Shown here: positions 45,913-64,000 of the stretch, one piece after another
Layout of the letters: each line of letters opens with the position of its first letter
Position numbering within the stretch: the stretch's first letter is position 1
Source: Sulfuricurvum sp.
GTDB lineage: Bacteria > Campylobacterota > Campylobacteria > Campylobacterales > Sulfurimonadaceae
Assembly (NCBI GenBank): GCA_024637295.1
Contig: JAGXFL010000005.1
Coordinates: forward strand, 1 to 64,000
Reading direction: 5' to 3'
DNA: 64,000 bases
Notes under the pieces: generated by a model
The model's input: only the letters and a program-made list of their open reading frames with translations
Told to the model about the DNA's origin: nothing
The model's database searches: none
Translations under genes and position numbers: made by a program

Positions 45913-46709
45913 CGTCTCTCGTTTTTATAGATTGTCGGGCGAATCTGCCGTACGGAATCGGTAATATGTCCAATCGTCTCTGCATGGCCGATAAAGAGGT
46001 AACCGCCCGGTTTTAGCACACGCAATACATTTTGGACAATTCTTTTTTTGTTGTCATTATCAAAATAGATGAGCATATTACGCAAAAAGATCACATCAAA
46101 TTTGCCCAAATCACTTGGTATCGTCTCCATCAGGTTGGCACTGTGGAAATGTACTTTACTTCGGAGATAGTCGTCGATCAAAAACTCCCCTTCATATTTT
46201 CCCGTCCCACGAAGACAATAGCGCTTGAGATAGCTCTCGTCGATCTGATCAGAAAAACGAATCGGATAGAGCCCTTCTGAGGCTTGCTTGAGTACTTCGG
46301 TGTTGATATCAGTGCCCAGCACTTCCCACTCGATAGCTCTTTGAGTAAGGGCATTGTCTAACTCCATTGCGATACTGTACCCCTCCGCCCCGATACTCGC
46401 CGCTGCACTCCAAACTCGAAAAGGTGCAGTTCTAACGTGTGGCAAAATCTCATCGCGCATAAAATCAAAATGATGCGACTCTCTAAAAAAGCTGGTTTCG
46501 TTGGTCGTGATGGTGTTAATCATCGTTTCTAGCTCTTCAGGAGAGGCGATGCAGTGATCGTGATAGGCTTCGTAATCTACGAGATTTAGGTGTCGAAGCC
46601 TCTTTGAGAGGCGTCCGACGACGAGCTGTTTTTTCGAGTCAGCGAGGTGAATCCCGCTGTGGTGTTTGACCAAAGCGGTCAGTTTTTCAAATGCACGGTT
46701 ACTAATCAT
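45909..46709 (-). CDS. cheR: Chemotaxis receptor methyltransferase CheR
   Basis: 266 residues. An N-terminal helical part (SNRAFEKLTALVKHHSGIHL, RLSKRLRHLNL) is followed by the SAM-binding domain with VWSAAASIGAEGYSIAM, LGTDINTEVL, FDVIFLRNMLIYFDN, and LKPGGYLFIGHAE. It methylates receptor glutamates with S-adenosylmethionine. The receptor two genes upstream has a C-terminal pentapeptide that could tether it. Confidence 0.97.
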   Translation of the reverse strand: MISNRAFEKLTALVKHHSGIHLADSKKQLVVGRLSKRLRHLNLVDYEAYHDHCIASPEELETMINTITTNETSFFRESHHFDFMRDEILPHVRTAPFRVWSAAASIGAEGYSIAMELDNALTQRAIEWEVLGTDINTEVLKQASEGLYPIRFSDQIDESYLKRYCLRGTGKYEGEFLIDDYLRSKVHFHSANLMETIPSDLGKFDVIFLRNMLIYFDNDNKKRIVQNVLRVLKPGGYLFIGHAETIGHITDSVRQIRPTIYKNERR

Positions 46710-46725
46710 AATTCAAAAACCTTGT

Positions 46726-47670
46726 TTAAACACGTGCGTACATTTGAATTTTTTGCTGTAAATCTTCAACATCGAGTTTATGGATGACGTGGTCTACCCC
46801 GTGACGTTTCGCCTGATCGATGATCGAGGGGTTTGCCATGTTGGTGTTCATCACAAACGGTATCGAACGAGTCGAGGCGTTATTTTTCACTTCACGAAGC
46901 AGTGCCATACCATCCATCACCGGCATCTCAATATCGCTGAGGATGAGAGCGACATCGTCTGCATTTAGTGTGTTAAGACGATCTAACAACGTTTTACCGT
47001 TATCGAATACCTCAAAATCGAGGTTCATTTGCGTCATTGCCATCTCGACCGCTTTTTGGATGATTTTACTGTCATCGCAAAAGAGGATCTTTTTTGTAAT
47101 AGCGAGATGACCCAGTGAGCTGATTTTGTTCATCTCATGCGCATGCGATTCAGGGAATACCTCGGTTAACAGGGCATCTGAGTTGAAAATAATGCACAGT
47201 TTGTTTTCACCCGCGATACTCATCTCTGTAATTTGTGCACTTTTGGGATCACGCGCGGAGTTATCGATCAGTTTTTCTGCCTCGATGTTTTGGATACCGA
47301 TGACATTTTTGATGATAATCCCGACACGCTGATGACCGAAGTTACACACAATAACCAGTTCATAATCACACTCACGATTTTCTCCTTTTCCAAGCCAGCG
47401 ATCGAAATGGATGACGGAACACATCTCATCACGTATCTTTGCCGTACCCAGAAGGGTTCCGCTGTTTTCGGAATTGATCGCGATGTTGAGCTCTTTGTTG
47501 ACGATCAGCTCTTCAACTTTGGCAACATTGATGGCAAAAAGTTCATCATAACCGTTGCGGAAGATAACGTATTGACTCGTCACATCGGCATTGGAGGTGA
47601 CCAGACGAATCAGTTCATCCGCACTGTCGATTTGACTGCTCGCGTTATTTCTATCGTTTTCTTGGTTCAT
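46726..47670 (-). CDS. cheV: Chemotaxis coupling protein CheV (CheW-receiver)
   Basis: 314 residues. Residues ~30-175 are a CheW-like domain (VIFRNGYDELFAINVAKVEELI, TAKIRDEMCSVIHFDRWLG). Residues ~190-314 are a receiver: ILFCDDSKIIQKAVE, phospho-Asp in LILSDIEMPVMDG, and Lys in HVIHKLDV. CheV couples receptors to CheA and may act as a phosphate sink; it is typical of Campylobacterota. AAGG precedes the ATG. Confidence 0.95.
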   Translation of the reverse strand: MNQENDRNNASSQIDSADELIRLVTSNADVTSQYVIFRNGYDELFAINVAKVEELIVNKELNIAINSENSGTLLGTAKIRDEMCSVIHFDRWLGKGENRECDYELVIVCNFGHQRVGIIIKNVIGIQNIEAEKLIDNSARDPKSAQITEMSIAGENKLCIIFNSDALLTEVFPESHAHEMNKISSLGHLAITKKILFCDDSKIIQKAVEMAMTQMNLDFEVFDNGKTLLDRLNTLNADDVALILSDIEMPVMDGMALLREVKNNASTRSIPFVMNTNMANPSIIDQAKRHGVDHVIHKLDVEDLQQKIQMYARV

Positions 47671-47679
47671 CCTTGATCC

Positions 47680-48171
47680 TTATACGTTTCGTTTTCGTGT
47701 AACGCGAGAGAGTTCGACGATGTCGAGAATCCCCTCCATATCGAGCAGCGTGATAAAACGATCCTCAACCTTTGCCATCATCTGCATAAAATCTTTTCGG
47801 ATTTTGGAGCCGAATTCCGGTGCTTCCATCTTGTGTGATGGATCGATGTCGTAGACCTGATCGACCATGTCAACGATGATCCCCACTTCGGTCTCTTCAT
47901 CTGCAATGGTTGTTTCGATGGTGATGATGCAGCTTTTTTTGCTGATATCGCTAATTCCCAGTCCTAGACGTCCTGAGAGATCGAGGACGGGAATGACATT
48001 ACCGCGAATGTTGGTCACACCTGCAATGAAGCTTTGCATCATCGGCACACGGGTGATCTGTGTGTATTCGATGATCTCGCGGACATAGCCGACGTTGATT
48101 GCGAACATCTCATTTTTAAGGTAAAACGAGAGGAACTGATGCCCCTCGTTCTTATGCGTTATCTCAGCCAT
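47680..48171 (-). CDS. cheW: Chemotaxis coupling protein CheW
   Basis: 163 residues, one CheW domain: FLSFYLKNEMFAINVGYVREII, PMMQSFIAGVTNIRGNVIPVLDLSGRLG, and VGIIVDMVDQVYDI. It bridges receptors and CheA in the membrane array. It lies between the receptor gene (13-bp gap) and cheV (9-bp gap). Confidence 0.97.
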   Translation of the reverse strand: MAEITHKNEGHQFLSFYLKNEMFAINVGYVREIIEYTQITRVPMMQSFIAGVTNIRGNVIPVLDLSGRLGLGISDISKKSCIITIETTIADEETEVGIIVDMVDQVYDIDPSHKMEAPEFGSKIRKDFMQMMAKVEDRFITLLDMEGILDIVELSRVTRKRNV

Positions 48172-48184
48172 GGGTGCCCCGTTT

Positions 48185-50482
48185 TCAGAATGTTTTGAAA
48201 TCTTTCTTATCTACCGCATGGGCTTCGTGCGCTACTTTTGTCTCAGGAGCTTTTTTAGCTGGAGCGATTACTTTTGATGAAGATTTGCCATTGCTATCAT
48301 CGACGACGAAGAACGACATCATCGCTCTTAGTCCCTCTGCCTGAGCCGTCATCTCTTCACTAGCGCTTGCGAGTTCTTCGCTTCCTGCCGCATTTTGCTG
48401 TGTTACGCTGTCCAACATTGCCATTGAGCCGTTGATTTGCTCAATCCCTGCGTTTTGTTCTGCTGATGCCGCTGCGATCTCTTGAACGAGTTCCGCGGTT
48501 TTACGGATATTTGGGATGATCTCTTTGATCAACTCTCCCGCTTTTTCAGAGACCTTGACGCTATCGCCCGTGATTTTACCGATCTCTTGTGCCGCTACTT
48601 GTGAACGTTCTGCCAATTTACGTACTTCGACCGCAACAACCGCGAATCCTTTACCGTGTTCACCTGCACGTGCCGCTTCGATCGCCGCATTGAGGGCTAG
48701 GAGGTTGGTTTGATACGCGATGTCTTCGATAATGCTGATTTTTCCTGCGATCTCTTTCATCGCATCGACAGTTTGATCGACCGCACTTCCGCCGTCTTCC
48801 GCCATTTTAGAAGCGTTAGACGCCATCTCGTCGGTACGTTTTGCGTTCTCTGCGTTTAGGTTGATACTGCCTGTCATCTCTTCGATGGCTGCTGCTGTCT
48901 CTTCGAGGTTGCTTGCTTGTTCTGTCGCACCGTTGCTGAGGCTTTGTGCTGTACCGCTTACTTGTTCACTAGCTGAAGTGATTTGGAGCGCTGCGTTTTG
49001 CGCTTCGATGATAATATCTTGGAGTTTTGACCCCATATCGTTGGTTGCAGTTTTGATCGCTACAAGATCGCCTTTGAAATCGCTGCGGATACGAGCACGT
49101 AGATCACCCTCTGCCATTTTGCCGAGTACTTCACCTGTTTCACCGACTGCACCTTGTACTGCAGATGCCATATCATTGACGGCACGTTTAAACACATCGT
49201 AATCATTTTTATATGCTGTCGTGATGCGAGTAGAGTAATCACCCTCAGAAATTTTAACCAATGCACTGACACCGTCGGTAACCACTGCCGCATAGATGAT
49301 ATCGAGCATATTGTTGACACCGCCGACAACCTCTTGGTATCCACCTTTAAACTGTGAATCGTCCGCACGGAAGGTCAATTTACCCTCAGTTGCATTGTTA
49401 ATAAGGGTTTGTGTTTCGTTACCCATGTTGTTAAGTGCCGACATAACGTCATTGACCGCTTGTTTGAACACATCGTAATCGTTTTTGTATGCCGTCGTAA
49501 TCGGCTGTTTAAAGTTACCCTCAGCAAGACGTACCAATGCACCAACACCGTCATCAACAACCGCCGCATTAATAACCGCTAGCATTTCATTGACACCGCC
49601 GAGGATCGCTTTCCAATCCCCACTAAACTGATCCGCGTTCGCTTTTGCGCTGAGTTTTCCGTCTTTTGCCGAATCGACAAGCATTGTGAGCTGTGACTGC
49701 ATTCCACGAATCGTCTCAATCATCCCTGCCATCGCTGCCTTGAGCTGACCTGTCTCTTCTGTCGTATCTGCCGTGATTTTGATATTCAAATCTCCTGCGG
49801 CAATTTTATTGGCAGCATCAAGGGCTTCGCTCAACGGTGCAGTAATGCTACGGGTGACAAATATACCGATTCCAATCCCCAAAATAGCGGCGATAATAGA
49901 TAATACAATCATCAAATTACGTGCGTTGTTGTAGTCTTGTTCAGCTTTTTTTGCAGCATCGACTACCAGCTGTTTTTGATAATCATTCAGTGAATCGAGC
50001 GCATTGTAATATGTTTTCTGAACATCACGCACTTCGGTAGACAGTACGCGATAGGCTTCATCATTTTTGTTTACTGTCGCAAGTTCAATCACCTTTTTAG
50101 CTGCCGGAGAGAAAACGGCACGTGCATCTACCACTGCTTGGAGTAACTCTTTTCCTTTCTCGCTTTGTATTTCATTCCCAAGCTTATCTAAGCCCTCAGT
50201 GATTTTTTTATTACGTTCAGCGACCTCATTGTTAATTTTTTGTGATTCTGCTATGTCGGTTGTAAGTATAATATTACGCATAGCAGCTCTGTTGTCATTG
50301 GCAATGCTTTTTATTTCGTTCACCATTGCTACTTTAGGGAACTGTTCTTGTGCAACGTTGTCCATTGCATCGTTCATATCACCAAGCCGCATAATCGCTA
50401 TGATCGCTATGATGGATAGTAGTATCAGTAATGTTCCAAATCCAAGCCCGAGCTTGGCACCTATTTTCATGTTTTTAAACAT
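48185..50482 (-). CDS. Membrane chemoreceptor with repeated HAMP-like units and C-terminal tether
   Basis: 765 residues. A membrane segment (~10-32), a four-helix-bundle periplasmic sensor with [18 protein letters not shown], a second membrane segment (~190-212), then a HAMP domain and at least three further HAMP-like units, two of them copies with a 92-residue period. The signalling tip is [41 protein letters not shown], given here only by its ends: DIAYQTNLL and [10 protein letters not shown] flexible ~35-residue tail ends in DFKTF, which fits the aromatic-xx-aromatic rule of CheR/CheB tether pentapeptides. GGAGG precedes the ATG. Confidence 0.93.
49191..49606. repeat. Internal ~276-bp duplication in receptor gene
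   Basis: The stretches from 49191 and 49467 are similar: both begin AACACATCGTAATC and encode [10 protein letters not shown](Q/R)AVND followed by an EG(K/D) and a VGALV/VSALV unit. The 276-bp offset equals 92 residues. This is a duplication of a HAMP-like pair, seen also at the protein level. Confidence 0.75.
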
Positions 50483-50519
50483 CTGTTTTTCCTCCGTGTT
50501 TCTATTAATTTGAACGCCA

Positions 50520-50582
50520 AAGGGGCAAAGCCCCTTCAGCTACGCTAGCCGCTATGGCACTAAAGCTAGCCGCGTGCGCGGC
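50520..50582. other. GC-rich stem-loops between cheA and receptor gene
   Basis: Three elements fill the 116-bp gap. One is a perfect 7-bp hairpin AAGGGGC-AAA-GCCCCTT (50520-50536). The second is a direct repeat GCTAGCCGC (50544-50552 and 50565-50573). The third is a palindrome GCCGCG-TG-CGCGGC (50569-50582). No T-run follows on the minus strand. They could act as an RNA-stability or attenuation signal, or be a REP-like element. Confidence 0.65.
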
Positions 50583-50598
50583 AGAATCCTTTCTACTT

Positions 50599-52608
50599 TT
50601 ACGCACTCTTCATTTCATCCGAGCCCCCCTTGAAGCTTAGGATGTAACTCACCAGCATCGGAACATCGAGGATGAGGGCGACTTTGCCGCTGCCCAATAT
50701 CGTAGAGCCGCTGATACCGTGCAGATCCGCGAAGATTTTCCCCAGCGGTTTGATAACCGTCTGGAACTCCCCAAATAGTTCATCCACGATAAAGCCGTAA
50801 CGACGTCCTGCATAGTGGACGACGACGATGTTGGCACGTGCGTCAGCGGTTTTTTGCTCATCGAACAAATCTCCGACATTGAGAAGAGGGAGAATCGTAC
50901 CGCGCAAGTTGATGTAGTTGTTCCCGTGCATCTCCTCTTTCTCGCGATCAGAGAGTTCGATACACTCCACAACCATATCCAGAGGGATGACGTAGAACGT
51001 CTCACCCACTTTGACCAAAAAGCCGTCGATAATCGCCAATGTAAGAGGAAGTCGGATGATGAAACTCGTCCCCTCCCCTACGCGGCTTTTGATCTCGATG
51101 TTTCCGCGCAGCGCTTCGATGTTTCGTTTCACAACGTCCATCCCGACACCACGACCAGAGAGGTCGGTGACGGCAGGTGCTGTCGAGAATCCCGGTTCTA
51201 GAATGAGCTTGAAAATCTCTTGTTGAGAGAGATGCGCTCCCTCTTCGATGAGCCCTTTTTCGATCGCTTTGCGATAAAGCATCTCATCATCCAGACCCTT
51301 ACCATCATCAGTGATTTCGATGACCACCGTCCCTGCATCGTGGTAGGCGTTTAGGGTCAATGTCCCCTTGGCACTTTTAGATCCGCGATCCGAGGGCATT
51401 TCGATCCCGTGATCGATGGCGTTGCGGATGATGTGCACAAGCGGATCGGTGATTTTCTCCGTCACCGTTTTATCCAGCTCGGTTTCCGCACCCTTTATAA
51501 CGAGTTCAATATCTTTGCCCAGTTTTTTGGAGAGATCCATCACGATTCGTTTGAAACGGTTGAACGTCTCGCCGATTTGTACCATCCGTATTTGCATCGC
51601 GCTCTCGCGGATATCTTCAAGCATCCGTGAGACGATGGAGACAGATTCGATGAGTTCACCGTTTTTCATGTCGATGGATTGTTGGACGACGTTGGCATTG
51701 GCGATCACCATCTCACCGATCTGGTTGATGAGCTGATCGATTTTTTCGGCATCGACGCGGATGGTGTAGGCGTTTTGCGCCTGTACCTGTGTGTTGGCAC
51801 TTTGGGCGGAGATTTTCTTCGGCTCCTCTTTGTTCGCTGTTTGCGCTAGCGCCGCAGGTTTAACCTCGGCTACCGCTTCGCTCAAAAGTATCGTCGTATC
51901 GTCGCGGATGAACTCAAACACGTCGAGAATATCTTCGCGACTGAGTCCCGTCGTAAAAGAGATGTCAAACGTGACGTAACACGCTGTCGGCTCCAGTTCC
52001 TCCATGAGAGGAACCGCCGAGGTATCGACATGCGATTCAAACGCGGTGGAGTTTTTACGCAGATGCGCCAAAAAGCTCGCCGGTTCAAACCCCTGCTCCA
52101 TCACCTCTCGGGCAAAAGAGAGTTTCATCGTCCAGTTTTTATCCGCACATACCTCGATTGCCGCTTTGGAAGTTTCCCCACCGTGATGGTGCATCTCTTC
52201 ACCCAACGTCGTGCACAATGCCTCACCCAGACGTGCCGTCGTGTCGGTAAGCTCCGTTGTCGGCGCCTCCTCATTGTTCGTCGCGACGGCGAACTCGACG
52301 AGATTTTGCATGTGGTCTTTGCACTCCAACAGCAGTTCCCCCAGCTCATCGGTCATCTCGATTTTGCCGTTGCGCACCTGATCGAGGAGATTTTCGGCGA
52401 TGTGGGTAAACCCGACGACGAAGTCGAGTTTGTACATCCCTGCCGCCCCCTTGATCGTATGGGCAGCACGGAAGACAGCGTTGATCATCTCATCGTCCAT
52501 CCCGTTCTCACGGATGCTCATGAGTGATGTCTCCATCGCTTCGAGCAGTTCGAGAGACTCCTCACGGAACTCTTTGGCAATATCGCTAAAATTCATACCT
52601 GAGCTCAT
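50599..52608 (-). CDS. cheA: Chemotaxis histidine kinase CheA
   Basis: 669 residues. An HPt domain with phospho-His50 in FRAAHTIKGAAGMY. A middle domain of ~100 residues (NWTMKLSFAREVMEQGFEP, VFEFIRDD) is present where CheY/CheB binding occurs. Then the dimer helices, the ATPase domain (DPLVHIIRNAIDHGIE, EITDDGKGLD, GRGVGMDVVKRNIEAL), and a CheW-like C-terminus. No fused receiver, unlike many Campylobacterota CheA (CheAY) proteins, which makes this a likely second or accessory system. ATGA overlap with the STAS gene. Confidence 0.96.
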   Translation of the reverse strand: MSSGMNFSDIAKEFREESLELLEAMETSLMSIRENGMDDEMINAVFRAAHTIKGAAGMYKLDFVVGFTHIAENLLDQVRNGKIEMTDELGELLLECKDHMQNLVEFAVATNNEEAPTTELTDTTARLGEALCTTLGEEMHHHGGETSKAAIEVCADKNWTMKLSFAREVMEQGFEPASFLAHLRKNSTAFESHVDTSAVPLMEELEPTACYVTFDISFTTGLSREDILDVFEFIRDDTTILLSEAVAEVKPAALAQTANKEEPKKISAQSANTQVQAQNAYTIRVDAEKIDQLINQIGEMVIANANVVQQSIDMKNGELIESVSIVSRMLEDIRESAMQIRMVQIGETFNRFKRIVMDLSKKLGKDIELVIKGAETELDKTVTEKITDPLVHIIRNAIDHGIEMPSDRGSKSAKGTLTLNAYHDAGTVVIEITDDGKGLDDEMLYRKAIEKGLIEEGAHLSQQEIFKLILEPGFSTAPAVTDLSGRGVGMDVVKRNIEALRGNIEIKSRVGEGTSFIIRLPLTLAIIDGFLVKVGETFYVIPLDMVVECIELSDREKEEMHGNNYINLRGTILPLLNVGDLFDEQKTADARANIVVVHYAGRRYGFIVDELFGEFQTVIKPLGKIFADLHGISGSTILGSGKVALILDVPMLVSYILSFKGGSDEMKSA

Positions 52609-52904
52609 AATTCACCTTTGCATTGAGCATCCCATTCGTATCCGAAGAGAGCCATAAAATTTTCAACCGAACCGCCGACCCCATCCACACAGCACTCTTG
52701 GCCGGAGGCTTTGGTGCTTTTGGTGAGTGAAACGAAAAGCTGAAATCCTGCCGTATCCATTTTGTCCGTTACGGTGAAATCGATCACAACTTCTTTTGCC
52801 TCAGGAAGAAATCCTTTTAGCTCTTTGAGTGTCTCTTCAACCTGATAGATCGTGAGTTCACCCTCGGGGTAAAATCGTAAAGTTGAACCCTCCATGGTAA
52901 CCAT
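52605..52904 (-). CDS. STAS-domain protein
   Basis: The start at 52904 is favoured, with GGTGA five bases upstream; GTG at 52913, directly after the cheY stop, is also possible. ~99 residues, one STAS domain: LRFYPEGELTIYQVEETL, VVIDFTVTDKMDTAGFQLFVSL. The phospho-acceptor Ser of anti-sigma antagonists is replaced by Thr in MDTAGFQ. STAS genes recur beside cheA in polar and deltaproteobacterial systems; the partner is unknown. Overlaps cheA by 3 bp. Confidence 0.88.
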   Translation of the reverse strand: MVTMEGSTLRFYPEGELTIYQVEETLKELKGFLPEAKEVVIDFTVTDKMDTAGFQLFVSLTKSTKASGQECCVDGVGGSVENFMALFGYEWDAQCKGEL

Positions 52905-52913
52905 ATCTCTCAC

Positions 52914-53279
52914 CTACCCTAACAGTTTTGAGACAGCGCCCAGGAGTTTGACCTTGTCAAACGGTTTGACCATCCATGCCTTGACTCCTGCCGCCTTGCC
53001 CGCTTCCATCTCGCTTTGACCTGTGACGGTCGTGAGCATGATAATAGGGACAAATCGGTACGACGCCTCTTCTTTGATCAACCGAGCGAACGTCAATCCG
53101 TCCATTACGGGCATATTGACATCACAGATGATAAGATCTACCGGTGTAGCCTTCGCCCTATCCAATGCTACTTGGCCGTTCTCCGCCTCGATTACTTCGT
53201 ATCCGGTCTCTTTTAAGATCGAGCTCACCGTCATACGCATTACGGTAGAGTCATCGACAATTAGCAGTCTTTTTGACAT
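52914..53279 (-). CDS. cheY: Chemotaxis response regulator CheY
   Basis: 121 residues, one receiver: LLIVDDSTVMR, phospho-Asp in LIICDVNMPVMDG, Thr in MLTTVTGQ, and Lys in AWMVKPFDK. First gene of the chemotaxis operon. Upstream lies the repeat-array promoter at 53329-53394. CheY-P would bind the flagellar switch or act within the pathway's own adaptation. Confidence 0.95.
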   Translation of the reverse strand: MSKRLLIVDDSTVMRMTVSSILKETGYEVIEAENGQVALDRAKATPVDLIICDVNMPVMDGLTFARLIKEEASYRFVPIIMLTTVTGQSEMEAGKAAGVKAWMVKPFDKVKLLGAVSKLLG

Positions 53280-53431: not shown

Positions 53432-54268
53432 TTAAATAATAGGCAATGATTGCATACGAGGATTGTAGTCATGCAAAAATTGCATCATATCGGGTGAGCG
53501 TTTTCTCATAAGTCTCATTTCACGGAAATAATCTTTCAGCGTCATCCCATATAAACGTTTAAAGTCATTTAGAAAATGGGACTGGTCATAATAGCCATTA
53601 TCCTGTACACTTGATAGGTCATACCTGCCATGCCCCATTGAATGAATCATTTTTTTTCGTCTCAGGGTGACAAGATAGGTTGACACATTGATACCGATGT
53701 ATTTTTTAAAATAGCGCAACAGAGTACTTTGAGAAATAGCGAACTTCTTTGCGATAAACTCACTGGCATTTGAGGGGAGATCGGTAAAATTTGCATCTAT
53801 GTAATGGATAATTTCTTGCGTGGTTTTATAAGGCTTGGATTCCCATTCTTTATCCATCATCGTTTCAACCCATTTGATCGAATGATCCCTATGCACATCT
53901 TCGGACAAGTCAATACTGATTTTAGATCCTGAGGTGATACTGTTGACCAAAGTGGAAATCGGAATATCCGTTAGCTTGAACATCCCGTATGGATTGAGTC
54001 GGATAACGGTTAGTTTTTTTGAGGTATTTTTAAAAGTGATTTTTATTTTGGGAGGATGGGTAAATTTGCCGCAGACAACATTACCATCAGTCATAAATAC
54101 TTCGCTGTTAAGCTCAAACGTTATGAGTGCGCATTCTTGATTAAGGATAATGTGCTCTTGAATCGTCGGGGTCCCTCTAAAATTGAAATCTTGTTCTATC
54201 ACATACATTTCTACTGGAATATAATATATTGAATCTATAAATGGGCTCTCATGTAATATTATGTTCAT
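53432..54268 (-). CDS. AraC-family transcription regulator
   Basis: 278 residues. The N-terminal ~160 residues form an effector-type domain (LHESPFIDSIYYIPVEMYVIEQDF). The C-terminal part has two HTH motifs: ASEFIAKKFAISQSTLLRYFKKYIG and the signature SSVQDNGYYDQSHFLNDFKRLYGMTLKDYF. AAGGAT precedes the ATG by eight bases. It lies between sites B and C, so it is an alternative candidate for the shared repeat array. Confidence 0.9.
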   Translation of the reverse strand: MNIILHESPFIDSIYYIPVEMYVIEQDFNFRGTPTIQEHIILNQECALITFELNSEVFMTDGNVVCGKFTHPPKIKITFKNTSKKLTVIRLNPYGMFKLTDIPISTLVNSITSGSKISIDLSEDVHRDHSIKWVETMMDKEWESKPYKTTQEIIHYIDANFTDLPSNASEFIAKKFAISQSTLLRYFKKYIGINVSTYLVTLRRKKMIHSMGHGRYDLSSVQDNGYYDQSHFLNDFKRLYGMTLKDYFREMRLMRKRSPDMMQFLHDYNPRMQSLPII

Positions 54269-54459
54269 TAAATCATCCTTTGTGAACAGGCATAATAAAA
54301 TATTAAAATGGTGTATGTCTTGTAAAATTCCGTCAATAAAAAAGTGTACTAAAATTTTATAATGGCTCTTTTTTTAAAACTGTTGATATATAATTAAACT
54401 TATTAACGTATGGTACATTTACCACAGGGCCAAAGTAATCTCATTGTGATACGATTATA

Positions 54460-54491
54460 TGACCGATATGTAACCACAATGATGCTAGAAT
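54460..54491 (+). promoter_or_regulatory. Promoter with 11-bp repeat pair, site C (response regulator)
   Basis: TGACC (54460-54464), N6, TAACC (54471-54475), N10, and a -10 TAGAAT (54486-54491) with an upstream TGC that makes it an extended -10. No clear mirror pair exists at the expected place 18 bp upstream. It lies 33 bp before the GTG of the response regulator. The implied autoregulation is inference. Confidence 0.7.
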
Positions 54492-54523
54492 GTACTGTTT
54501 TTATAATAATAGGAGTTATTATC

Positions 54524-55231
54524 GTGATACAGAATATGTTACTACTCAAAAATAAAAGTGTCCTATTCGCCGATGATGACATTATCACTCGAACTCAGAT
54601 GACTGAGATATTAGAGATTCTTTTTGACAAAGTTTATACGGCTCATGATGGTGATGAAGCCTTGATTATATATGAAGATGAATCACCCGACATTGTCCTC
54701 ACTGATATCAAAATGCCTAAAAGAGACGGTCTTTCTCTCATCAGGCAGATACGCCAACAAGATTACAAGACACCTATCATTTTGCTTACCAGTTTCGCCG
54801 AACAAGAGCTACTGTTAAACGCTGCCAATCTCTCGATAGATGGTTATCTGGTCAAGCCCGTTGAGCTCGAAAAATTGACCTATACGATCTGCAAAGCGAT
54901 CCAACGTACAAACAGGGAGATGGGTGTGGTCGTGCTGGCCAAACAACTCTATTACAATACTGCGACCAAAGAGCTCTATTTCAACGGTACCGTCGTCATG
55001 CTGGGGAATAAAGAACAGGAATTATTGGCTTTGCTCATCAACAACCGGCATAGAACGATCACCAAAGAGGAGATAAGCAGAGCTTTGTGGCCGCTTGACA
55101 CAATGTGCGAATCGGCAATCAAAAACATTATTTTACGATTACGGAAAAAAATGGAGATTGACATCATTATCTCCGTAAGGGGAATCGGCTATCGACTCGA
55201 TACCCGTGAAGTTCCAAGACCAAGTATATGA
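54524..55231 (+). CDS. OmpR/PhoB-type response regulator
   Basis: GTG at 54524 follows AGGAG by eight bases; an in-frame earlier ATG at 54410 is unlikely, since it would put the promoter inside the gene. 235 residues. The receiver has VLFADDD, phospho-Asp in IVLTDIKMPKRDG, Thr in ILLTSFAE, and Lys in YLVKPVE. A winged-helix DNA-binding domain follows: GNKEQELLALLINNRHRTITKEEISRALW, and SVRGIGYRLD. It ends 1 bp before the kinase start at 55233 and is presumably paired with it. It is the main candidate to bind sites A-D. Confidence 0.93.
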   Translation: MIQNMLLLKNKSVLFADDDIITRTQMTEILEILFDKVYTAHDGDEALIIYEDESPDIVLTDIKMPKRDGLSLIRQIRQQDYKTPIILLTSFAEQELLLNAANLSIDGYLVKPVELEKLTYTICKAIQRTNREMGVVVLAKQLYYNTATKELYFNGTVVMLGNKEQELLALLINNRHRTITKEEISRALWPLDTMCESAIKNIILRLRKKMEIDIIISVRGIGYRLDTREVPRPSI

Positions 55232-55232
55232 T

Positions 55233-58200
55233 ATGGAGATTTTATTATTAGCCGCAATAATTGTAATAGTGATCCTCTCCTACAAAATCAGATCACTCAT
55301 ACATGAACGCGATGTTGCCCTCAAAAAGCAGGAATCCGATTCTAAAATTCTCTTTTTACAATCACGCTATGCCTCGATGGGAGAGACCGTCGGAAACATC
55401 GCCCACCAATGGAAACAGCCGCTTAATGCCATCGGCTCTATTCAAAATAGCATCAAAGCTTCACTGATATTCCAAGGTGAAATTTCAAAAGAGAAACTTC
55501 TCAATTCTGTTGATACCAGCTTTAAGCTGCTGCAACATCTGGCCGAGACTATCGATACCTTTTACAGTTTTTTATCCTACAAAGAGAGCAGCAGTTTCGT
55601 CCTATCCGACGAGCTCGAAAAAATCCGCAAAATCACCGAATACTCCTTCGAAAACAGTAACATCACCTTGCAATATGAACTCAATATCAATCCCACGATT
55701 CAAGGAAATGCCAACGAGTTTACCCATTCCATGCTCAATCTCATTTTAAATGCCAAAGACGCATTTGATGAAAGCGATTCGCATTCCCCCACGATCATCG
55801 TCAGAGTTGATGATGGAAACGGCAACTGCAACATAACGGTCTGCGACAATGCCGGAGGAATACGTATAATGCCCATCGAGATGGTTTTCGATCGACATAT
55901 TTCAACCAAAGAATCAGGATCTGGGCTGGGATTGTTTATGACCAAAAACATCATCGAAAACCGATTTAGCGGTACCATCTGTGTCGAAAATAAATCCGGT
56001 GGCGCCTGTTTTACTATCGCTTTGCCTTACGCGCAATACAACGAAAACTTTCCCCTATTAGAAACGACGGATGAGAAACTGAGTTTAGAGCGGATCAATC
56101 AACTCTCCCGCAAAGTCATCGAACTCGAAGAGATCGAAAAAACCCTCAAAAAATGGGCTGAAATCTTTGAACACGCACATTGGGCAATTACCATACGCCT
56201 CGCTAATAGTAATACGCTTGAAATGACTAATCCTGCTTTTAATGCACTTTACGGATATACGACCAATGAAATAAATACACTAAGTGTACCGGATCTTTTT
56301 GCACCACAGAGCTTAGAGATATTGCCAAAAATACAAAAAGAGGCTTTTGAAAAAGGTTTTACCGTATTCGAAACGATACAAAAACGTAAAGACGGTTCTT
56401 ATTTTCCTGCATCCGTTGAGCTCATAGTCATCAAAGATGCACAGGGAGAAGTCTTATATAACGTCGCTAATATCTGGGATTTGACAGAGAAAAAAGAGGT
56501 AGAGGAGAGACTTAAACTTAAAAAATTTGCACTTGAACATATTCAAGAAGCAGTATATTTAATCGATAAAGATTCAAAAGTTCATTATGTAAATGAGAAA
56601 GCCTACACCTCTTTAGGATATACCCAAGAGGAATTGCTGAGCATGACAACTTTGGATCTTAATTCCGATTTAACAATGGAATTATGGAATGCACATTGGG
56701 AAGACATCAGAAAAAATGGTTCAGCTAAGGCTCTAATAGAACATAAAAGAAAAGATGGAGTAGTTATACCTGTAGAAGTAAGCGCAAACTATTTTGAATA
56801 TAACGGTGTAGGCTATAATCTTGCAATTTCACGTGATATTACGGAGCGCCTACTCCTTGAAGCAGAAAAAGAGACCAGAGCACTCAAAACGATTGCCGAA
56901 AATATCCCTGATAATATCGCCCGGTGGGACACAGAGGGTCGCTACCTCTATATAAATCCGACACATGAACGCACTCTGGGAATCTCTAATAGCGAGATAA
57001 TCGGCATGAGTATTTCTGATGAACATACAGAGGTAAAAGAGGCTATCGCAGAAGTGATCACTGCCAAACAAAAAGTAATCGTACATCAACAGGTGCTGAA
57101 CGAGAATGGTGAAAGAGAGATGCACGATGTCACTTTAGTGCCGGAGTTGGATACTGATGGAAAACTCATCAGTGTACTTGGAATCGGTAAAGATATGACC
57201 GACATCTATCGCATGCAAGATACCATTTCCGCACGAGAGAAAGAGTTCCGAACACTGGTTGAGAACCTACCGGACAATGTCATCCGTTACGACAAAGAGT
57301 GTCGGGCTATCTATGTGACTCCACACATGGATAAGCTCCACGGAGAAGATACCGCACTTACGCTACTAAGCAAAACGCCGACGGAAGTTCACAGTGATTT
57401 TGTTGAAACAAGAGAATATCAAGAAAAAATAGTACGTACTATCGCGACAGGAGAGACGAATGAGTTGGAACTGACTTTCCCTATCCATACAGGTGAAATA
57501 CGCACCCACCATATCCGCTTCATAGCCGAACGAGATTTAAATGGTGAAATATACGGTGCGTTAGCAATCGGCACCGATATCACAGAACGCAAAATGCACG
57601 AAAATCTATTAGTTCAAAAAGAACAAGAATCTCGTGCATTACTCAACAATCTGCCAGGCTATGTATATACGCTTAAACTTAGCCCTGAGGGAGAAATGAA
57701 TTTTATTTATCTTAGTCCAGGCGTTGCAGAGGTTTACGGCATAAATGCGGAAGAACCATTGGATGATATGGTAGCAACTATTCATGAGATGATACATCAT
57801 GATGACCTACAGGAAATTGAAGCTAAAATCATTCAATCAAGCCAAGAATTAACCCCTTTCTTTGTGGCTTATCGTATTCATCATCCCACAGATGGTGAAA
57901 AATGGCTTGAGGCACGTTCTATTCCTGAAAAATTACAAGACGGTACTATTGTATGGCATGGAATCGTACTTGATGTGACTAAGCGTAAAAAGCTTGAAGC
58001 TCTATTAGACAAAGAGCGTAAATTCTTAACCGATGCACAGAGAGTTGCACATACCGGCAGCTGGTATCTAGATATCAAAGATGGTGTTCTCACATGGTCG
58101 GATGAGACCTATAGAATCTTTGAGTTTGACAAAGAGGATATAGACGATCTTCATAAGACATTCTACGAGTGTGTCCATCCTGATGATCGAGAAATGGTAA

Positions 58201-59240
58201 ATGCACCTTATTTAGAAACTTTAAAAACAGGAAATGCCTACGAAATAGAACACAGAATTGTTATGGCCGACGGTAGAATCAAATATGTAATCGAAAGATG
58301 TGCACATACATACGATAATGATGGAACTCCTCTCTACTCAATAGGAACAGTACAAGATATTACTGCACGAAAAGAAGAAGAAGAGATTATGCAGCAGAAT
58401 CGAACTCTCTTACATGCCATTTTGGAAAGCTCACCTGATGTCATCACCTTTGCCCTCGATACGAATTACCGCTATATCGCCTTCGACTCCAAGCATGCGG
58501 AAGTGATGCGCACGATTTTTGGTAAAGAGATAACTATAGGGATGGATATGCTGGAGGTAATAGGGTCAATTGCCGACAGGAAAATCGCAAAACGTAGTTA
58601 TGACCGAGCACTTGAAGGAGAGAGCTTTATCGCCGAAGAGGAATACGGCGATGAGAGACTATCACGAAAGTTCTGGCAGATATCGTACTCCCCAATCTGT
58701 AGTAATGAGGGTAAAATCATCGGACTCACCTGTTTTAATCTCGACATTACACAGCGTAAACAGGCCGAAGAGTACATCCATAACCTGAACATGACACTTG
58801 AAAAACGGATCCATGAGCGGACGGTGCAGCTGCAGGAGGCTGTCACGACGCTGCACCAAGAGGTCACTGAACGTAAAAATACCGAAAAACAGCTCAAATT
58901 GATTGAAACGGCGATCAATAGCTCTGATGAAGCGGTCTACATCATAGACGATACCAATCGCATCATTTTTGCTAGCGACGCAGTAAGCACAATGTTGGGA
59001 TATACCAAAGAAGAGCTGATGGAGATGACTATATACGATATTGATGTACATCTGAGCTACGAAGATGTGTGCAAAATTTTCGAAAATTTACCGGTCGAAT
59101 ACAGATTTACATTTAAGACCAAACACCGAACTAAAGAGGGGCGTATCTTTGATGTAGAAGTCAATACGACCTGTTTCACGCATCAAGGAATAGGTTTTGG
59201 AATATCGATCATCAAAGAGATTGGGGGGAAAGATAGTTAG
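55233..59240 (+). CDS. Histidine kinase with N-terminal catalytic core and eight C-terminal PAS domains
   Basis: The ATG at 55233 is taken because it begins right after the regulator's stop; an in-frame GTG at 55206 overlaps that gene. 1335 residues. One membrane segment (~4-20), then H58 in GNIAHQWKQPLNAI, then the ATPase (N box NLILNAKDAF, VCDNAGGI, GSGLGLFMTKNII) up to ~270. Only then come about eight PAS domains (starts near 305, 435, 550, 672, 800, 930, 1055 and 1215). Usual kinases have PAS before the core. The chain ends in PAS8 with no further output domain. Confidence 0.9.
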   Translation: MEILLLAAIIVIVILSYKIRSLIHERDVALKKQESDSKILFLQSRYASMGETVGNIAHQWKQPLNAIGSIQNSIKASLIFQGEISKEKLLNSVDTSFKLLQHLAETIDTFYSFLSYKESSSFVLSDELEKIRKITEYSFENSNITLQYELNINPTIQGNANEFTHSMLNLILNAKDAFDESDSHSPTIIVRVDDGNGNCNITVCDNAGGIRIMPIEMVFDRHISTKESGSGLGLFMTKNIIENRFSGTICVENKSGGACFTIALPYAQYNENFPLLETTDEKLSLERINQLSRKVIELEEIEKTLKKWAEIFEHAHWAITIRLANSNTLEMTNPAFNALYGYTTNEINTLSVPDLFAPQSLEILPKIQKEAFEKGFTVFETIQKRKDGSYFPASVELIVIKDAQGEVLYNVANIWDLTEKKEVEERLKLKKFALEHIQEAVYLIDKDSKVHYVNEKAYTSLGYTQEELLSMTTLDLNSDLTMELWNAHWEDIRKNGSAKALIEHKRKDGVVIPVEVSANYFEYNGVGYNLAISRDITERLLLEAEKETRALKTIAENIPDNIARWDTEGRYLYINPTHERTLGISNSEIIGMSISDEHTEVKEAIAEVITAKQKVIVHQQVLNENGEREMHDVTLVPELDTDGKLISVLGIGKDMTDIYRMQDTISAREKEFRTLVENLPDNVIRYDKECRAIYVTPHMDKLHGEDTALTLLSKTPTEVHSDFVETREYQEKIVRTIATGETNELELTFPIHTGEIRTHHIRFIAERDLNGEIYGALAIGTDITERKMHENLLVQKEQESRALLNNLPGYVYTLKLSPEGEMNFIYLSPGVAEVYGINAEEPLDDMVATIHEMIHHDDLQEIEAKIIQSSQELTPFFVAYRIHHPTDGEKWLEARSIPEKLQDGTIVWHGIVLDVTKRKKLEALLDKERKFLTDAQRVAHTGSWYLDIKDGVLTWSDETYRIFEFDKEDIDDLHKTFYECVHPDDREMVNAPYLETLKTGNAYEIEHRIVMADGRIKYVIERCAHTYDNDGTPLYSIGTVQDITARKEEEEIMQQNRTLLHAILESSPDVITFALDTNYRYIAFDSKHAEVMRTIFGKEITIGMDMLEVIGSIADRKIAKRSYDRALEGESFIAEEEYGDERLSRKFWQISYSPICSNEGKIIGLTCFNLDITQRKQAEEYIHNLNMTLEKRIHERTVQLQEAVTTLHQEVTERKNTEKQLKLIETAINSSDEAVYIIDDTNRIIFASDAVSTMLGYTKEELMEMTIYDIDVHLSYEDVCKIFENLPVEYRFTFKTKHRTKEGRIFDVEVNTTCFTHQGIGFGISIIKEIGGKDS

Positions 59241-59416
59241 GAGGAGATCTCACAACCATCTCCTTTTATGAGAGACTCTATCTCTTGTTTACATTTTTCC
59301 AAGGCCGCTTGATTTTGAGATTTGAGATTATTTTCCGAATTTTTCATTTCTTTTATCGTATTATACATCTCATCAAATGCCAGACAAAACTCACTGTATT
59401 CATCTTCATACTCCAT
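59237..59416 (-). CDS. Small acidic hypothetical protein (59 aa)
   Basis: The ATG at 59416 follows GGGGGAGT by about five bases. A helical, acidic protein: MEYEDEYSEFCLAF, KEMKNSENNLKSQNQAALEK. It overlaps the kinase stop by 4 bp and points toward it. Its start faces the repeat array at 59473-59538, so it is transcribed divergently from the giant PAS gene. No family recognised. Confidence 0.45.
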   Translation of the reverse strand: MEYEDEYSEFCLAFDEMYNTIKEMKNSENNLKSQNQAALEKCKQEIESLIKGDGCEISS

Positions 59417-59472
59417 AATGACTCCCCCTACCCACAACATACAACTGCAATAGAAAATTTTACTTTTTCATC

Positions 59473-59538: not shown

Positions 59539-59620
59539 TCTATTCATAAGTGTAATTAGGGTTATTCCCCGATTCGATTTTTTTACTTTGTCACTTAATA
59601 TGAATATTACGGAACCGCAT

Positions 59621-62600
59621 ATGGATAAATTAGAGTACATTTTTGATAATGCCAAAGAGGACATTGCTGTCGGCAACGCTCAGGATAACACCAATGTAAA
59701 AAGAAATGATGATGACATCGTCAAAATCACGAGACAGCTCACTTCACTCGTTTCCACCATTCCCGATTTGCTGTGGGTTAAAGACATCAATGGTGTGTAT
59801 CTGACCTGCAATCCTGCCTATGAACGTTTTATAAATGCCTCAAAAAGCGATATCATCGGTAAAACGGACTATGACTTTTATGAGGCAAATGCGGCAGATG
59901 CCTGTAAACAATCCGATCTCGACGCCATTGCCGCTGATAGCGTCACCCTCAGCTATGAAACCTTTTTCGATCACAATACCGGTGAAGACTCTACATGGGA
60001 GGTGAGAAAAGTTTCCGTCACAATGCCAGGAGGAGAGTCGATGGGGGTATTGGGTATCGGGCGCGATATCACACAACAAAAACAGATGGAAGCATCCCTG
60101 CATGATGCCAACGAACGCTACACCCATATCCTCGACAACAGCATCGATCCTATCTATCTTCTGGAAGTGACAGAGGACGGACGGTTCATCCATATCGAAA
60201 TAAACCAAGCATTTTTAGATGCCACAGGGGTACCCAAAGAAAAAATCGTAGGGCAATACGTCGATGAGATCGAGAATGAAGGGTTCAGAGAGATTCTCCT
60301 CCGAAAGTACGGCTCATGTCTAGCTGCGGGAGTAAAAACCGAATTCACAGCCGAATACGACCTTCCCGACGGACTTAAGACCTATCATTCCATTCTTACT
60401 CCGATTCGAGACGAGAGCGGACGGATAGAGAAGATTTCGGGTATAGCCAGAGATATTACAGAACAAAAAAAAGCAGAGTTAGCTCTAATAGAAAGCCAAA
60501 CTAAACTGCAAACCATTATCGAAAATGAACCGGAGTGCATTAAAATCATCGATGCCAACGGGCACTTGGTCTATATGAATCCAGCGGGTCTGGATATGAT
60601 TGAGGCTACACTGGATCAGGTGCAGGGAAAAGCAGTTCTTGGCGTTGTTGTTGAGGAATACAGGAATTCTTTTGCCCAGATGCACCAGCGGGTCATTGCC
60701 GGTGAAAAAGTTAATTTAATCTTTGAAACCATTGGATTAAAGGGCAAGCACTGCTGGCTAGAAACCACTTCGGCACCGATGCAATTAAACGGGGAACCTG
60801 TTTTATTGGGCGTTACGAGAGATATTACCGATAGAATAAATAATGAAAAAGAGCTGAAGAAAAATGAAGAAGCTCTTAAAATTAGAGAACAAGAGTTTCG
60901 TTCTCTAGCTGAAAACTCCACCGACCCTATTTTCCGCTACGACCTCGATTGCCGTCGTATCTATGTCAATCCGACGGTTGAACGGCTCAGCGGAATCCCT
61001 GCATCCGCATTACTTGGTAAGACTCCTTCGGAAGCGACGACTGTCCCGACGAAAGAAGCGCTAAAGATAGAGGAAACAATCAAAAGGGTAATACAAACGG
61101 GAGAACCAGAGATTTTAGATGTACTCTTTGTCGCACCAGATGGAAAAGAGCACTATTTTCGAAACAACCATATCCCCGAGTTTGACTCTGATGGAACTAT
61201 CACGAGTGTCCTTGCCATATCGCATGATATTACCGCAGTCAAACAGCAAGAAGGGTTGCTTGAAACGATACGCAAGAGCGAGCAAAAATTAAACAATCTG
61301 TATGCGCTTTCTCCACTTGGTATTGCCTTAACCGATATGAATGGGAAATACATCGAATTCAATGATGCATTTTGCACGATATGCGGTTATACACTAGATG
61401 AACTAAAAGAGCTTGATTATTGGGCTTTAACACCGATTGAATATAAGGAGCAAGAGCGTGAGCAGCTTGAGTTACTTAAACGAACCGGACGCTATGGTCC
61501 GTATGAAAAAGTATATCGCCAGAAAAATGGAAATCTGATCCCGATCCAACTCAATGGAGTATTGTTTACAGGAGATGATGGGGAGCAATATATATGGTCA
61601 ATTGTTGAAGACATCACCGAAAGAAAACGTGCCGAAGAAACCATCAATTCAAAATCCATTCTTCTTCAATCGATCTTGGAAAGTTCACCGGATGTAACCA
61701 TGTTTGCGTTGGATACGGGGTATAACTATCTTACTTTCAATCAAAATCATCGTGCAGTAATAAACGAAATATGGGGTCATAATATAACCATTGGTATGAA
61801 TATGCTCGATTATATAACACGTGAAGATGATAGACAAAAATCCAAAGAATTCTTTGATAAAGCGTTAGGCGGGGAGTCTTTTGTCAATGAAAGCGAATAT
61901 GGTGATGAAAATTTCTCTCGTAGCTATTGGGAGACCTATTATTCTCCGATGTATGACGATAACGGTGAAACGATAGGATTAACCTGCTTTAATCTCAATA
62001 TCACCGAACGAAAAGAGCAAGAAGAGCTATTACGTCAAAAAGAGGCGGAATTCCGATCTCTTGCCGAGAGAACTCCCGATACGATTGCACGTTACGACCG
62101 TGACTGTATACGCACCTATGCCAACCCATCTCTGGCTTCAATGATGGGAATCGCTACTGAAGAGCTACTGGGTGAAAAACCTACTGCTTACAACTTCTCC
62201 GTTCAATCAGTAGCCTATGAAGATAAGATGAGTGAGGTAATGCAAAACGGTTTCGAGGGGGAATTCGAATACACTTGGCCCGACAAAACGGGTCAAATGA
62301 TCACCAGTCACGTGCGGATCATCCCTGAAAAAGATGAAAATGGTGTAATTTGTAGCGTATTAGCAATCGGACGTGACATCACAAGTATCAAAGCATACGA
62401 ACAGCGCTTAAAACACAACGAAGATCGTCTAATTAAGGCTCAAAAAGTCGCAAAAATCGGGAGTCTTGAGGTAGAGTTTCCAGGGCTTAAAATCGCTTTA
62501 TCTTCTGAAACCCTCAATATTTTTGAAATTGATTCAAAAGTTTCAGCATTTTCGTATGACCATATTCTCGACGTTGTCCATCCCGAAGATCGAGTGGCTG

Positions 62601-64000
62601 TTGATGCACAGCTTGGTGTTGCAATTGCGAATAAAACACCCTACGAAATCGTCCACCGCCTCCTCTTCCGTGATGGCAGAATTAAATATGTCGAGCAAAA
62701 ATGGGAAACTGTTTTCGACAAGAGCGGTACCCCTATTCGCTCAATCGGAACGGTGCAAGACATCACACAGCGTAAACAGCAGGAACTCCTGCTAAAAGAA
62801 AAAGAGAATGAATATCAAACGCTAGCAAATAACTATCCTGACATTATTATCCGCTATGACCGCTCTTGCCGCCGCGTCTATGTCAATTACAATTTTAAAA
62901 AAATCTTCTCTTATGTGGCCAATGAATTTCTCGGAAAGAGCCCTATAGAGGGTTCTGGGCTGGTTGCTCCACAATATTTTATGGATGAAGTAAAAAAAGT
63001 GATTAACAGTGGCCTATCTAGTGAAATCGAAATAGCAGCCATTAATATACAAAATGAGATGAGATGGTATTTAGCCACCCTCGTCCCGGAATTTGATGGC
63101 AACGAGGTAAGCGGTGTATTATGTGTTGCCCGTGATATTTCTGATTCCAAAGTATACGAATCAGCTCTCCAAAAAAGTGCCAAATTGCAAAAAACTTTAT
63201 CGCGTATGGCTGGAAGTATCCCCGGGTTTGTATTCGTGTTTAAACGCTCTTTAATCGATAAAATGACCTTTACCTATGTCAGTTCCGGCATTATGGCACT
63301 TTGCGGATTACATCCTGAAGAATTGGCAGACGATGCAATGCCGTTTTTCTCTCTGATCCATCCCGATGATCGACACAAAATCGACAATGCTATAAGCATC
63401 TCTGCAATAAACATGTCTCCATTATATGAACAATTACGAATCTATGTACCGGGTGGAGAGATTATGTGGCTTGAGGTAAAAGCCACACCCAAGATTGATA
63501 CCGACAATGATGGGATTGCATGGTACGGTGTTGTACAAGATATTACCCAACGAATCCAACAAGAGCGTAAACTCTCTATGATGGAGTATTTTCTTGATCA
63601 TATCAATGAAGAGCTTTTCTTGATGAGAAATAAAGGTGAATTCGAATACATCAACGAGGCGGCCTGCCGTACCCTGGGATACAGCCGTGAAGAACTAAAC
63701 GGCATGGGAGTTGGTGATATAGACCCTGACTATCAGCCACAGCGTTGGGATGAACATTGGGAATATATAAAAGAAAACACTTCGCAACTTCTCGAAACAT
63801 CCCATACAACAAAAGAGGGAAAGGTCATCCCAGTAGAGATACATGCGAACTATTTCGAATACGACGATACGGGCTACAATCTGGCCATCACTCACGACAT
63901 CACACAACGTAAAGAGAACGAAGCGAAGTTAAAACGCAAAGAAGAGAGGCTCAAGGAGGCACAGCGCATCGCCAAAATGGGGAGCTGGGATTGGGATATC
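59621..64000 (+). CDS. Giant soluble multi-PAS sensor protein (3' partial)
   Basis: The ATG at 59621 has GGAA seven bases upstream; an in-frame ATG at 59600 lacks a ribosome site. The frame stays open to the window end (1460 codons). No signal peptide or membrane segment. At least eleven PAS/PAC units can be counted, first LVSTIPDLLWVKDINGVYL, last NYFEYDDTGYNLAITHDITQRK, with a twelfth starting at the edge (KMGSWDWDI). Several resemble PAS units of the neighbouring kinase. The output domain is outside the window; a kinase or GGDEF/EAL end is possible but unseen. Confidence 0.9.
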   Translation, partial: MDKLEYIFDNAKEDIAVGNAQDNTNVKRNDDDIVKITRQLTSLVSTIPDLLWVKDINGVYLTCNPAYERFINASKSDIIGKTDYDFYEANAADACKQSDLDAIAADSVTLSYETFFDHNTGEDSTWEVRKVSVTMPGGESMGVLGIGRDITQQKQMEASLHDANERYTHILDNSIDPIYLLEVTEDGRFIHIEINQAFLDATGVPKEKIVGQYVDEIENEGFREILLRKYGSCLAAGVKTEFTAEYDLPDGLKTYHSILTPIRDESGRIEKISGIARDITEQKKAELALIESQTKLQTIIENEPECIKIIDANGHLVYMNPAGLDMIEATLDQVQGKAVLGVVVEEYRNSFAQMHQRVIAGEKVNLIFETIGLKGKHCWLETTSAPMQLNGEPVLLGVTRDITDRINNEKELKKNEEALKIREQEFRSLAENSTDPIFRYDLDCRRIYVNPTVERLSGIPASALLGKTPSEATTVPTKEALKIEETIKRVIQTGEPEILDVLFVAPDGKEHYFRNNHIPEFDSDGTITSVLAISHDITAVKQQEGLLETIRKSEQKLNNLYALSPLGIALTDMNGKYIEFNDAFCTICGYTLDELKELDYWALTPIEYKEQEREQLELLKRTGRYGPYEKVYRQKNGNLIPIQLNGVLFTGDDGEQYIWSIVEDITERKRAEETINSKSILLQSILESSPDVTMFALDTGYNYLTFNQNHRAVINEIWGHNITIGMNMLDYITREDDRQKSKEFFDKALGGESFVNESEYGDENFSRSYWETYYSPMYDDNGETIGLTCFNLNITERKEQEELLRQKEAEFRSLAERTPDTIARYDRDCIRTYANPSLASMMGIATEELLGEKPTAYNFSVQSVAYEDKMSEVMQNGFEGEFEYTWPDKTGQMITSHVRIIPEKDENGVICSVLAIGRDITSIKAYEQRLKHNEDRLIKAQKVAKIGSLEVEFPGLKIALSSETLNIFEIDSKVSAFSYDHILDVVHPEDRVAVDAQLGVAIANKTPYEIVHRLLFRDGRIKYVEQKWETVFDKSGTPIRSIGTVQDITQRKQQELLLKEKENEYQTLANNYPDIIIRYDRSCRRVYVNYNFKKIFSYVANEFLGKSPIEGSGLVAPQYFMDEVKKVINSGLSSEIEIAAINIQNEMRWYLATLVPEFDGNEVSGVLCVARDISDSKVYESALQKSAKLQKTLSRMAGSIPGFVFVFKRSLIDKMTFTYVSSGIMALCGLHPEELADDAMPFFSLIHPDDRHKIDNAISISAINMSPLYEQLRIYVPGGEIMWLEVKATPKIDTDNDGIAWYGVVQDITQRIQQERKLSMMEYFLDHINEELFLMRNKGEFEYINEAACRTLGYSREELNGMGVGDIDPDYQPQRWDEHWEYIKENTSQLLETSHTTKEGKVIPVEIHANYFEYDDTGYNLAITHDITQRKENEAKLKRKEERLKEAQRIAKMGSWDWDI

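Follow-up and report, generated by a model that had tools for sequence, protein, structure and literature searches.

A histidine kinase of Sulfuricurvum with eight PAS domains behind its catalytic core, and its tail-bearing relatives in the Campylobacterales

The customary account of signalling in histidine kinases invokes helices that enter the DHp region from its N-terminal side. In CheA, a regulatory P5/CheW-like domain is found behind the ATPase domain. The signalling helix was placed rather strictly N-terminal to kinase domains by its definers (PMC1592074). In ShkA, a hybrid histidine kinase of Caulobacter that binds c-di-GMP, the pseudo-receiver domain REC1 located behind the CA domain receives the signal and controls autophosphorylation (PMC7010744). 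Aureochrome (PMC4721966) and PAL (PMC12797116) each have a single LOV sensor C-terminal to the effector (bZIP or ANTAR), for which a direct, non-covalent signal contact has been proposed, and TodS shows the layout PAS1-HK1-REC-PAS2-HK2 (PMC4861429), in which PAS2 follows one kinase core and precedes a second. The conventional 7TMR-DISM kinases combine N-terminal domains (PF07695/PF07696) with the core. No described kinase with PAS domains alone behind the core was found in the literature searched, which lay mostly outside subscription journals.

The window analyzed here, a stretch of 64,000 nucleotides from a Sulfuricurvum genome (contig JAGXFL010000005.1, positions 1 to 64,000), encodes such a kinase, which is preceded by a response regulator gene ending one base before the kinase ATG. 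The features of the locus are as follows.

54410 to 55231, forward strand: response regulator, REC plus Trans_reg_C winged helix (Pfam Response_reg, Trans_reg_C)
55233 to 59240, forward strand: histidine kinase with C-terminal PAS array, 1335 aa from the ATG
55239 to 55301, forward strand: single N-terminal membrane helix, about residues 3-23 (hydropathy; alignment to DISM-bearing relatives)
55353 to 55577, forward strand: DHp region, residues 41-115, with phospho-acceptor His58 at 55404-55406
55605 to 56036, forward strand: CA (HATPase_c) domain, residues 125-268, with N, G1 and G2 boxes intact
56037 to 56078, forward strand: variable tether, residues 269-282 (38% identity among orthologues; pLDDT below 50 at 271-283)
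56079 to 56180, forward strand: conserved linker helix, about residues 283-316 (identity, AlphaFold2 helix, selection)
56181 to 56498, forward strand: PAS1, residues 317-422 (profile match from 296), fixed first position in tails
56490 to 56855, forward strand: PAS2, residues 420-541, usual second type in tails
56856 to 57212, forward strand: PAS3, residues 542-660, 52% identical to PAS4 of the EAL protein adjoining the kinase of G064
57204 to 57596, forward strand: PAS4, residues 658-788 (PAS profile)
57588 to 57992, forward strand: PAS5, residues 786-920 (PAS profile)
57984 to 58376, forward strand: PAS6, residues 918-1048, PAS_3 type, most conserved tail module
58368 to 58763, forward strand: PAS7, residues 1046-1177, 52% identical to PAS6 of the downstream EAL protein
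58764 to 58871, forward strand: spacer between PAS7 and PAS8, residues 1178-1213, probably helical (sequence and domain limits)
58872 to 59225, forward strand: PAS8, residues 1214-1331, terminal PAS (PAS profile)
59588 to 64000, running past the window end, forward strand: PAS(x12)-GGDEF-EAL protein, 2012 aa (domain profiles)

The kinase frame, starting at 55206 (GTG) or 55233 (ATG), contains no stop codon before 59238-59240, and its domains follow in the order membrane helix, DHp/ATPase core (residues 41-268), linker, eight PAS domains and stop. Pfam search placed HATPase_c (PF02518) at residues 160-267 with an E value of 1.3e-16, whereas HisKA was under the cut-off (E 0.15, residues 49-107); the kinase identity thus rests mainly on HATPase_c and the H-box, NIAHQWKQPLNA, containing the phospho-acceptor His58. 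H58, W60 and P63 are invariant in an alignment of 46 homologues, and the N-box (NLILNAKD), G1 box (DNAGGI) and G2 box (GSGLGL) can all be read, so that the two marks of an orthodox kinase, the H-box His and a HATPase_c domain with its boxes, are both present. Moreover, both sequence and fold searches match the core to solved kinase structures, the fold search returning the ordinary kinase cores HK853, YF1 and LvrB. Collectively, the protein is a histidine kinase whose core is intact by sequence.

No N-terminal sensor domain was found in this kinase, in which just the membrane helix precedes the core, and Pfam gave no match to 7TMR-DISM_7TM. Behind the core, Pfam shows PAS families only, without REC, Hpt, H-kinase_dim or CheW domains. 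The preliminary description, which had placed the kinase core first and about eight PAS domains behind the ATPase domain, was thus borne out by Pfam and by the PAS profile, the latter giving exactly eight; its view that these PAS units lack the usual route from sensor to H-helix also holds, since all of them lie behind the core. The window kinase resembles CheA, including the one encoded in the window itself, in having a regulatory region behind the ATPase domain, but has no Hpt or CheW domain and carries its phospho-acceptor in DHp. Likewise, it shares with TodS a PAS domain behind a kinase core; a second, TodS-like core was looked for by Pfam within the frame and rejected.

A search for proteins of the same order, proposed together with the preliminary description, yielded 18 tail-bearing kinases from four Campylobacterales families (that of the window and three others), each with 2 to 12 profile-detected PAS domains behind the same core; matched GTDB records supply the names Sulfuricurvum, Sulfurimonas and Sulfurospirillaceae, covering two of the four families. 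Among them are the orthologues from five other Sulfuricurvum genomes, whose cores are 68–71% identical to that of the window kinase and which all have a PAS part behind the core. The fragments include G004 and G114, which are cut by contig ends, and the kinase of G207, counted outside the 18, ends in the linker. All core homologues outside this group (more than 90 ORFs in the loci fetched from the GTDB collection) stop no more than about 20 residues past the ATPase domain. Within its own genome, the window kinase alone has PAS domains behind the ATPase domain, being one of 24 CA-bearing proteins examined; this census covered 30 of the 34 HATPase_c places over the cut-off, and the profile detected 24. 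Other CA proteins of the genome with long C-terminal parts carry, as read from their sequences, receiver, CheA-type or unassigned regions. The survey for this order took in close homologues of the core and a single genome, and unrelated kinases elsewhere may have it too.

An assembly error or frameshift fusing two genes, which the preliminary description had named as a possible refutation, finds no support beyond the unusual order itself, and can practically be dismissed. The order recurs in 18 genomes, and the tail-bearing kinases of G317 and G443 are in single-contig genomes, which excludes an assembly chimera; moreover, the linker is conserved, in-frame and free of gaps. Separate translation of the PAS part from an internal start, the other objection then raised, was also rejected at the level of sequence, because no start codon in residues 255-440 is preceded by a Shine-Dalgarno-like sequence. 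We conclude that the kinase with C-terminal PAS domains is a real, uncharacterised variant of a well-known protein class.

The junction between CA and PAS1 was compared among six Sulfuricurvum proteins. Identity was 82% in the gap-free linker (residues 283-312), as against 38% in the preceding loop, 48% in PAS1, 74% in CA and 90% in DHp. Differences at the first, second and third codon positions of the linker were 0.163, 0.035 and 0.396, respectively, and the low second-position value relative to the third shows that the linker is under purifying selection in the kinase frame, across the CA-PAS junction. The earlier reading of one gene is thereby also upheld. The motif KKWADIFxxAxWGI, or a near variant, recurs in nearly all 18 tail-bearing members, and the window kinase follows the pattern of the clade, that is, the core and then a linker of the W308/F312/W317 type and the common PAS1 type.

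An AlphaFold2 model (mean pLDDT, 79; pTM, 0.54), calculated from a 46-row alignment for the monomer and thus saying nothing on docking, has a helix at residues 285-314 and a well-formed PAS1, with pLDDT values below 50 at 271-283 and 308-316. Across the clade, the tether loop differs in length and sequence. A fixed spacing from core to linker, taken as a sign of rigid coupling, was rejected because the spacing ranges over 38–47 residues, being 43 in Sulfuricurvum. The junction would thus consist of a flexible tether and then a functional helix; a variable, poorly predicted loop before a strongly conserved helix speaks, as far as alignment and model can tell, against a rigid coupling through helices and in favour of docking or dimerisation.

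The N-terminal parts of the relatives bear on how this order arose. In six tail-bearing kinases (G424, G529, G376, G396, G213 and G064), Pfam finds 7TMR-DISMED2 and 7TMR-DISM_7TM N-terminal to the core, which is followed by the PAS array, and that of G443 has the 7TM part of DISM before the core. The window kinase differs from these in lacking the DISM sensor, but the single membrane helix of the Sulfuricurvum proteins aligns with the last DISM helix of the relatives and is, by this alignment, a relic of it. Accordingly, the segment that the preliminary description called the only membrane segment is indeed the only hydrophobic one by hydropathy (within residues 1-23), but appears to be a remnant of a larger sensor. 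Among the members without DISM, the N-terminus varies freely (one helix, a DISM fragment or a coiled coil), whereas core, linker and tail are retained: G055 has a fragment that matches positions 153-202 of the 205-position DISM profile (E 0.0026, under the curated cut-off), G117 has lost the membrane helix altogether, and G207 has, on sequence reading, a PAS-like region in its place. As relatives exist with DISM sensor, core and PAS array together, the order is not flipped, as the word "reversed" had implied; rather, the array was probably added behind a conventional DISM sensor kinase, after which Sulfuricurvum and some others lost the sensor in front.

Tail-less kinases are found in six members of the Sulfurospirillum group; DISM was present in all four tested by Pfam, and was assigned by neighbourhood similarity only in the remaining two (L176 and L177), whose frames are broken upstream. 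The tally is therefore 7 kinases with DISM and tail, 10 evaluable ones with a tail and without intact DISM, 6 with DISM and without a tail (two inferred), and 1 with neither. The last, a 302-aa clade kinase from a metagenome-assembled genome (L173, 3061-3969; the same as L074, 6060-6968), shows no open DISM frame directly upstream and is possibly truncated. Front sensor and tail thus each seem dispensable, and nearly every member keeps at least one of them, which fits a tail supplying input. In the core tree, the tail-less group is placed inside the tail-bearing clade (96/92), with G274 as a long branch of uncertain placement. The idea that tail-less kinases are ancestors and that the tail was gained once was rejected on account of this nesting, which requires either that the tail was gained once and lost once or that it was gained twice; the former is favoured by the homology of linker and PAS1 in both tail-bearing groups. 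The natural series of DISM-kinase, DISM-kinase-PASn and kinase-PASn offers a means of examining whether the same core can come under the control of a C-terminal array, and how kinases exchange sensor modules with a c-di-GMP enzyme encoded alongside.

For the window kinase, we put at about even chances an account in which input has moved to the C-terminus, with the PAS tail acting on the core by tethered docking or dimerisation and with a DISM-kinase and a PASn-GGDEF-EAL protein as its origin. The PAS array, and not the membrane helix, would then be the main input; the loop behind the ATPase domain would serve as a flexible tether, with dimerisation, or docking on DHp/CA, falling to the conserved linker helix. 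A change of ligand or redox state in the array would alter this docking or dimerisation and so free or lock CA, with a consequent change in His58 phosphorylation and in transfer to the upstream REC-wHTH regulator, while the usual continuous helix would not be the coupling route from tail to core. By analogy, ShkA, PAL and aureochrome may be regarded as precedents for control from behind by contact with the effector: ShkA also has its regulatory domain behind CA, although this consists of REC and not PAS, and aureochrome and PAL have a PAS-fold sensor behind the effector, although the window kinase has no LOV reactive-Cys motif (NCRF-type) on a motif check. The closest solved PAS domains are generic PAS sensors and indicate no cofactor.

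Several observations weigh against the tail as the main input. Seven relatives keep the DISM sensor, so that the tail need not be the main input; PAS number and type vary among the tails; one lineage of the Sulfurospirillum group is tail-less and still has the kinase; and the 302-aa copy has neither intact DISM nor a tail. It is conceivable that the tail does no more than stabilise dimers or modulate a core whose drive comes from the N-terminus, the membrane helix of the window kinase still carrying the signal, as would suit both the retained DISM sensors and the single unbroken helix (residues 2-81) that AlphaFold2 predicts from the membrane segment into DHp. We regard this as quite unlikely, since the N-terminus of the Sulfuricurvum proteins lacks a periplasmic domain and shows weak constraint (45% identity among orthologues), and since G117 dispenses with the membrane helix.

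As for the source of the tail assumed in the C-terminal-input account, the best match of PAS1 (other than to PAS1s) was, for 18 of 18 tails, the first PAS domain of a kinase-adjacent PAS-GGDEF-EAL protein of Sulfuricurvum, at 32–43% identity; the EAL neighbour in the window does not itself begin with a PAS1-like type. Middle PAS modules are also common to kinases and neighbours, as with PAS7 of the window kinase and PAS6 of the downstream protein. A complete kinase-PASn-GGDEF-EAL fusion was not found among the relatives. The 5' part of a PASn-GGDEF-EAL gene is thus the probable source, and the simplest account would be its fusion to a DISM-kinase gene, followed by module exchange and, in Sulfuricurvum, by loss of DISM, the direction being inferred. 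The broader proposition, that a Campylobacterales clade gave up an N-terminal membrane receptor as its input in favour of a modular C-terminal array derived from PAS-GGDEF-EAL proteins, acting by tethered docking behind the ATPase domain and exchanging PAS domains with the c-di-GMP enzyme, is offered tentatively, at somewhat less than an even chance. The downstream 2012-aa protein extends beyond the window (L009, 589-6627) and is followed there by a 621-aa PAS(x3)-GGDEF protein and an MCP-like protein.

A PAS-GGDEF-EAL gene adjoins the kinase or sits a few genes from it in 13 tail-bearing members (with one gene between in G317, and upstream with two regulator genes between in G055 and G117), and none was seen beside the tail-less kinases; the count leaves G213 aside, and other members are at contig ends. 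This association, together with the PAS types in common, would also suit a tail that serves not as a ligand sensor but as a docking platform, pairing the kinase with the adjacent PASn-GGDEF-EAL protein through PAS-PAS hetero-contacts and thereby linking phosphorylation to c-di-GMP turnover. However, common origin and exchange explain the common PAS types equally well, the tail-less kinases form one clade, so that the contrast in neighbours amounts to one event, and G443 bears a tail with no such neighbour in the DNA fetched around it. We therefore consider the platform rather unlikely.

The modules of the array, to which the C-terminal-input account assigns sensing, are unequally conserved. 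PAS6 was 79–83% identical in four relatives whose cores are 69–78% identical, and 72% in G064 (core, 43%), 63% in G213 (48%), 58% in G376 (43%) and 57% in G021 (76%), thus being conserved at least as well as the core in seven of eight comparisons; the PAS6 type was not found in eight tail-bearing members. PAS6 is accordingly not universal, and may be under constraint or have been exchanged recently. Divergence is faster in most PAS modules than in the core, and this, with the range of PAS number from 2 to 12, might suggest that the tail is a vestigial passenger of gene fusion. This is very improbable in view of the PAS6 conservation, the strong purifying selection on the linker, the largely fixed first PAS positions, and frames that remain open up to 1587 codons past the core in four families. 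In the L066 kinase, residues 1399-1529 are 72% identical to PAS6 of the window kinase (57984-58376), although the cores share just 43% identity, a hint that the module was transferred recently or is unusually constrained.

The same regulator gene precedes the kinase in the loci of relatives, and the upstream REC-wHTH protein is likely the cognate regulator of the window kinase, judging from gene position. At L062 (1765-3309) and L063 (1882-3422), two tandem REC-wHTH regulators, not one, precede the kinase. An AraC-type regulator (HTH_18; 53432-54268, reverse strand) is divergent from the response regulator, with a homologue at the same place in L044 and L045, and a short possible coding frame was seen by eye only between the kinase and the EAL gene (about 59241-59420, reverse strand). 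Further upstream lies a chemosensory cluster (44824-53279, reverse strand) encoding a CheY-like receiver, CheA (50599-52608), an MCP with HAMP repeats, CheW, CheW-REC, CheR and CheB, of which the CheY-like receiver, as well as a small STAS-like ORF, was read from the sequence. A CheA homologue flanks the kinase locus in L065, L066, L165, L166 and L168, in the last three together with a homologue of the CheY-like protein, indicating that the neighbourhood is conserved across families.
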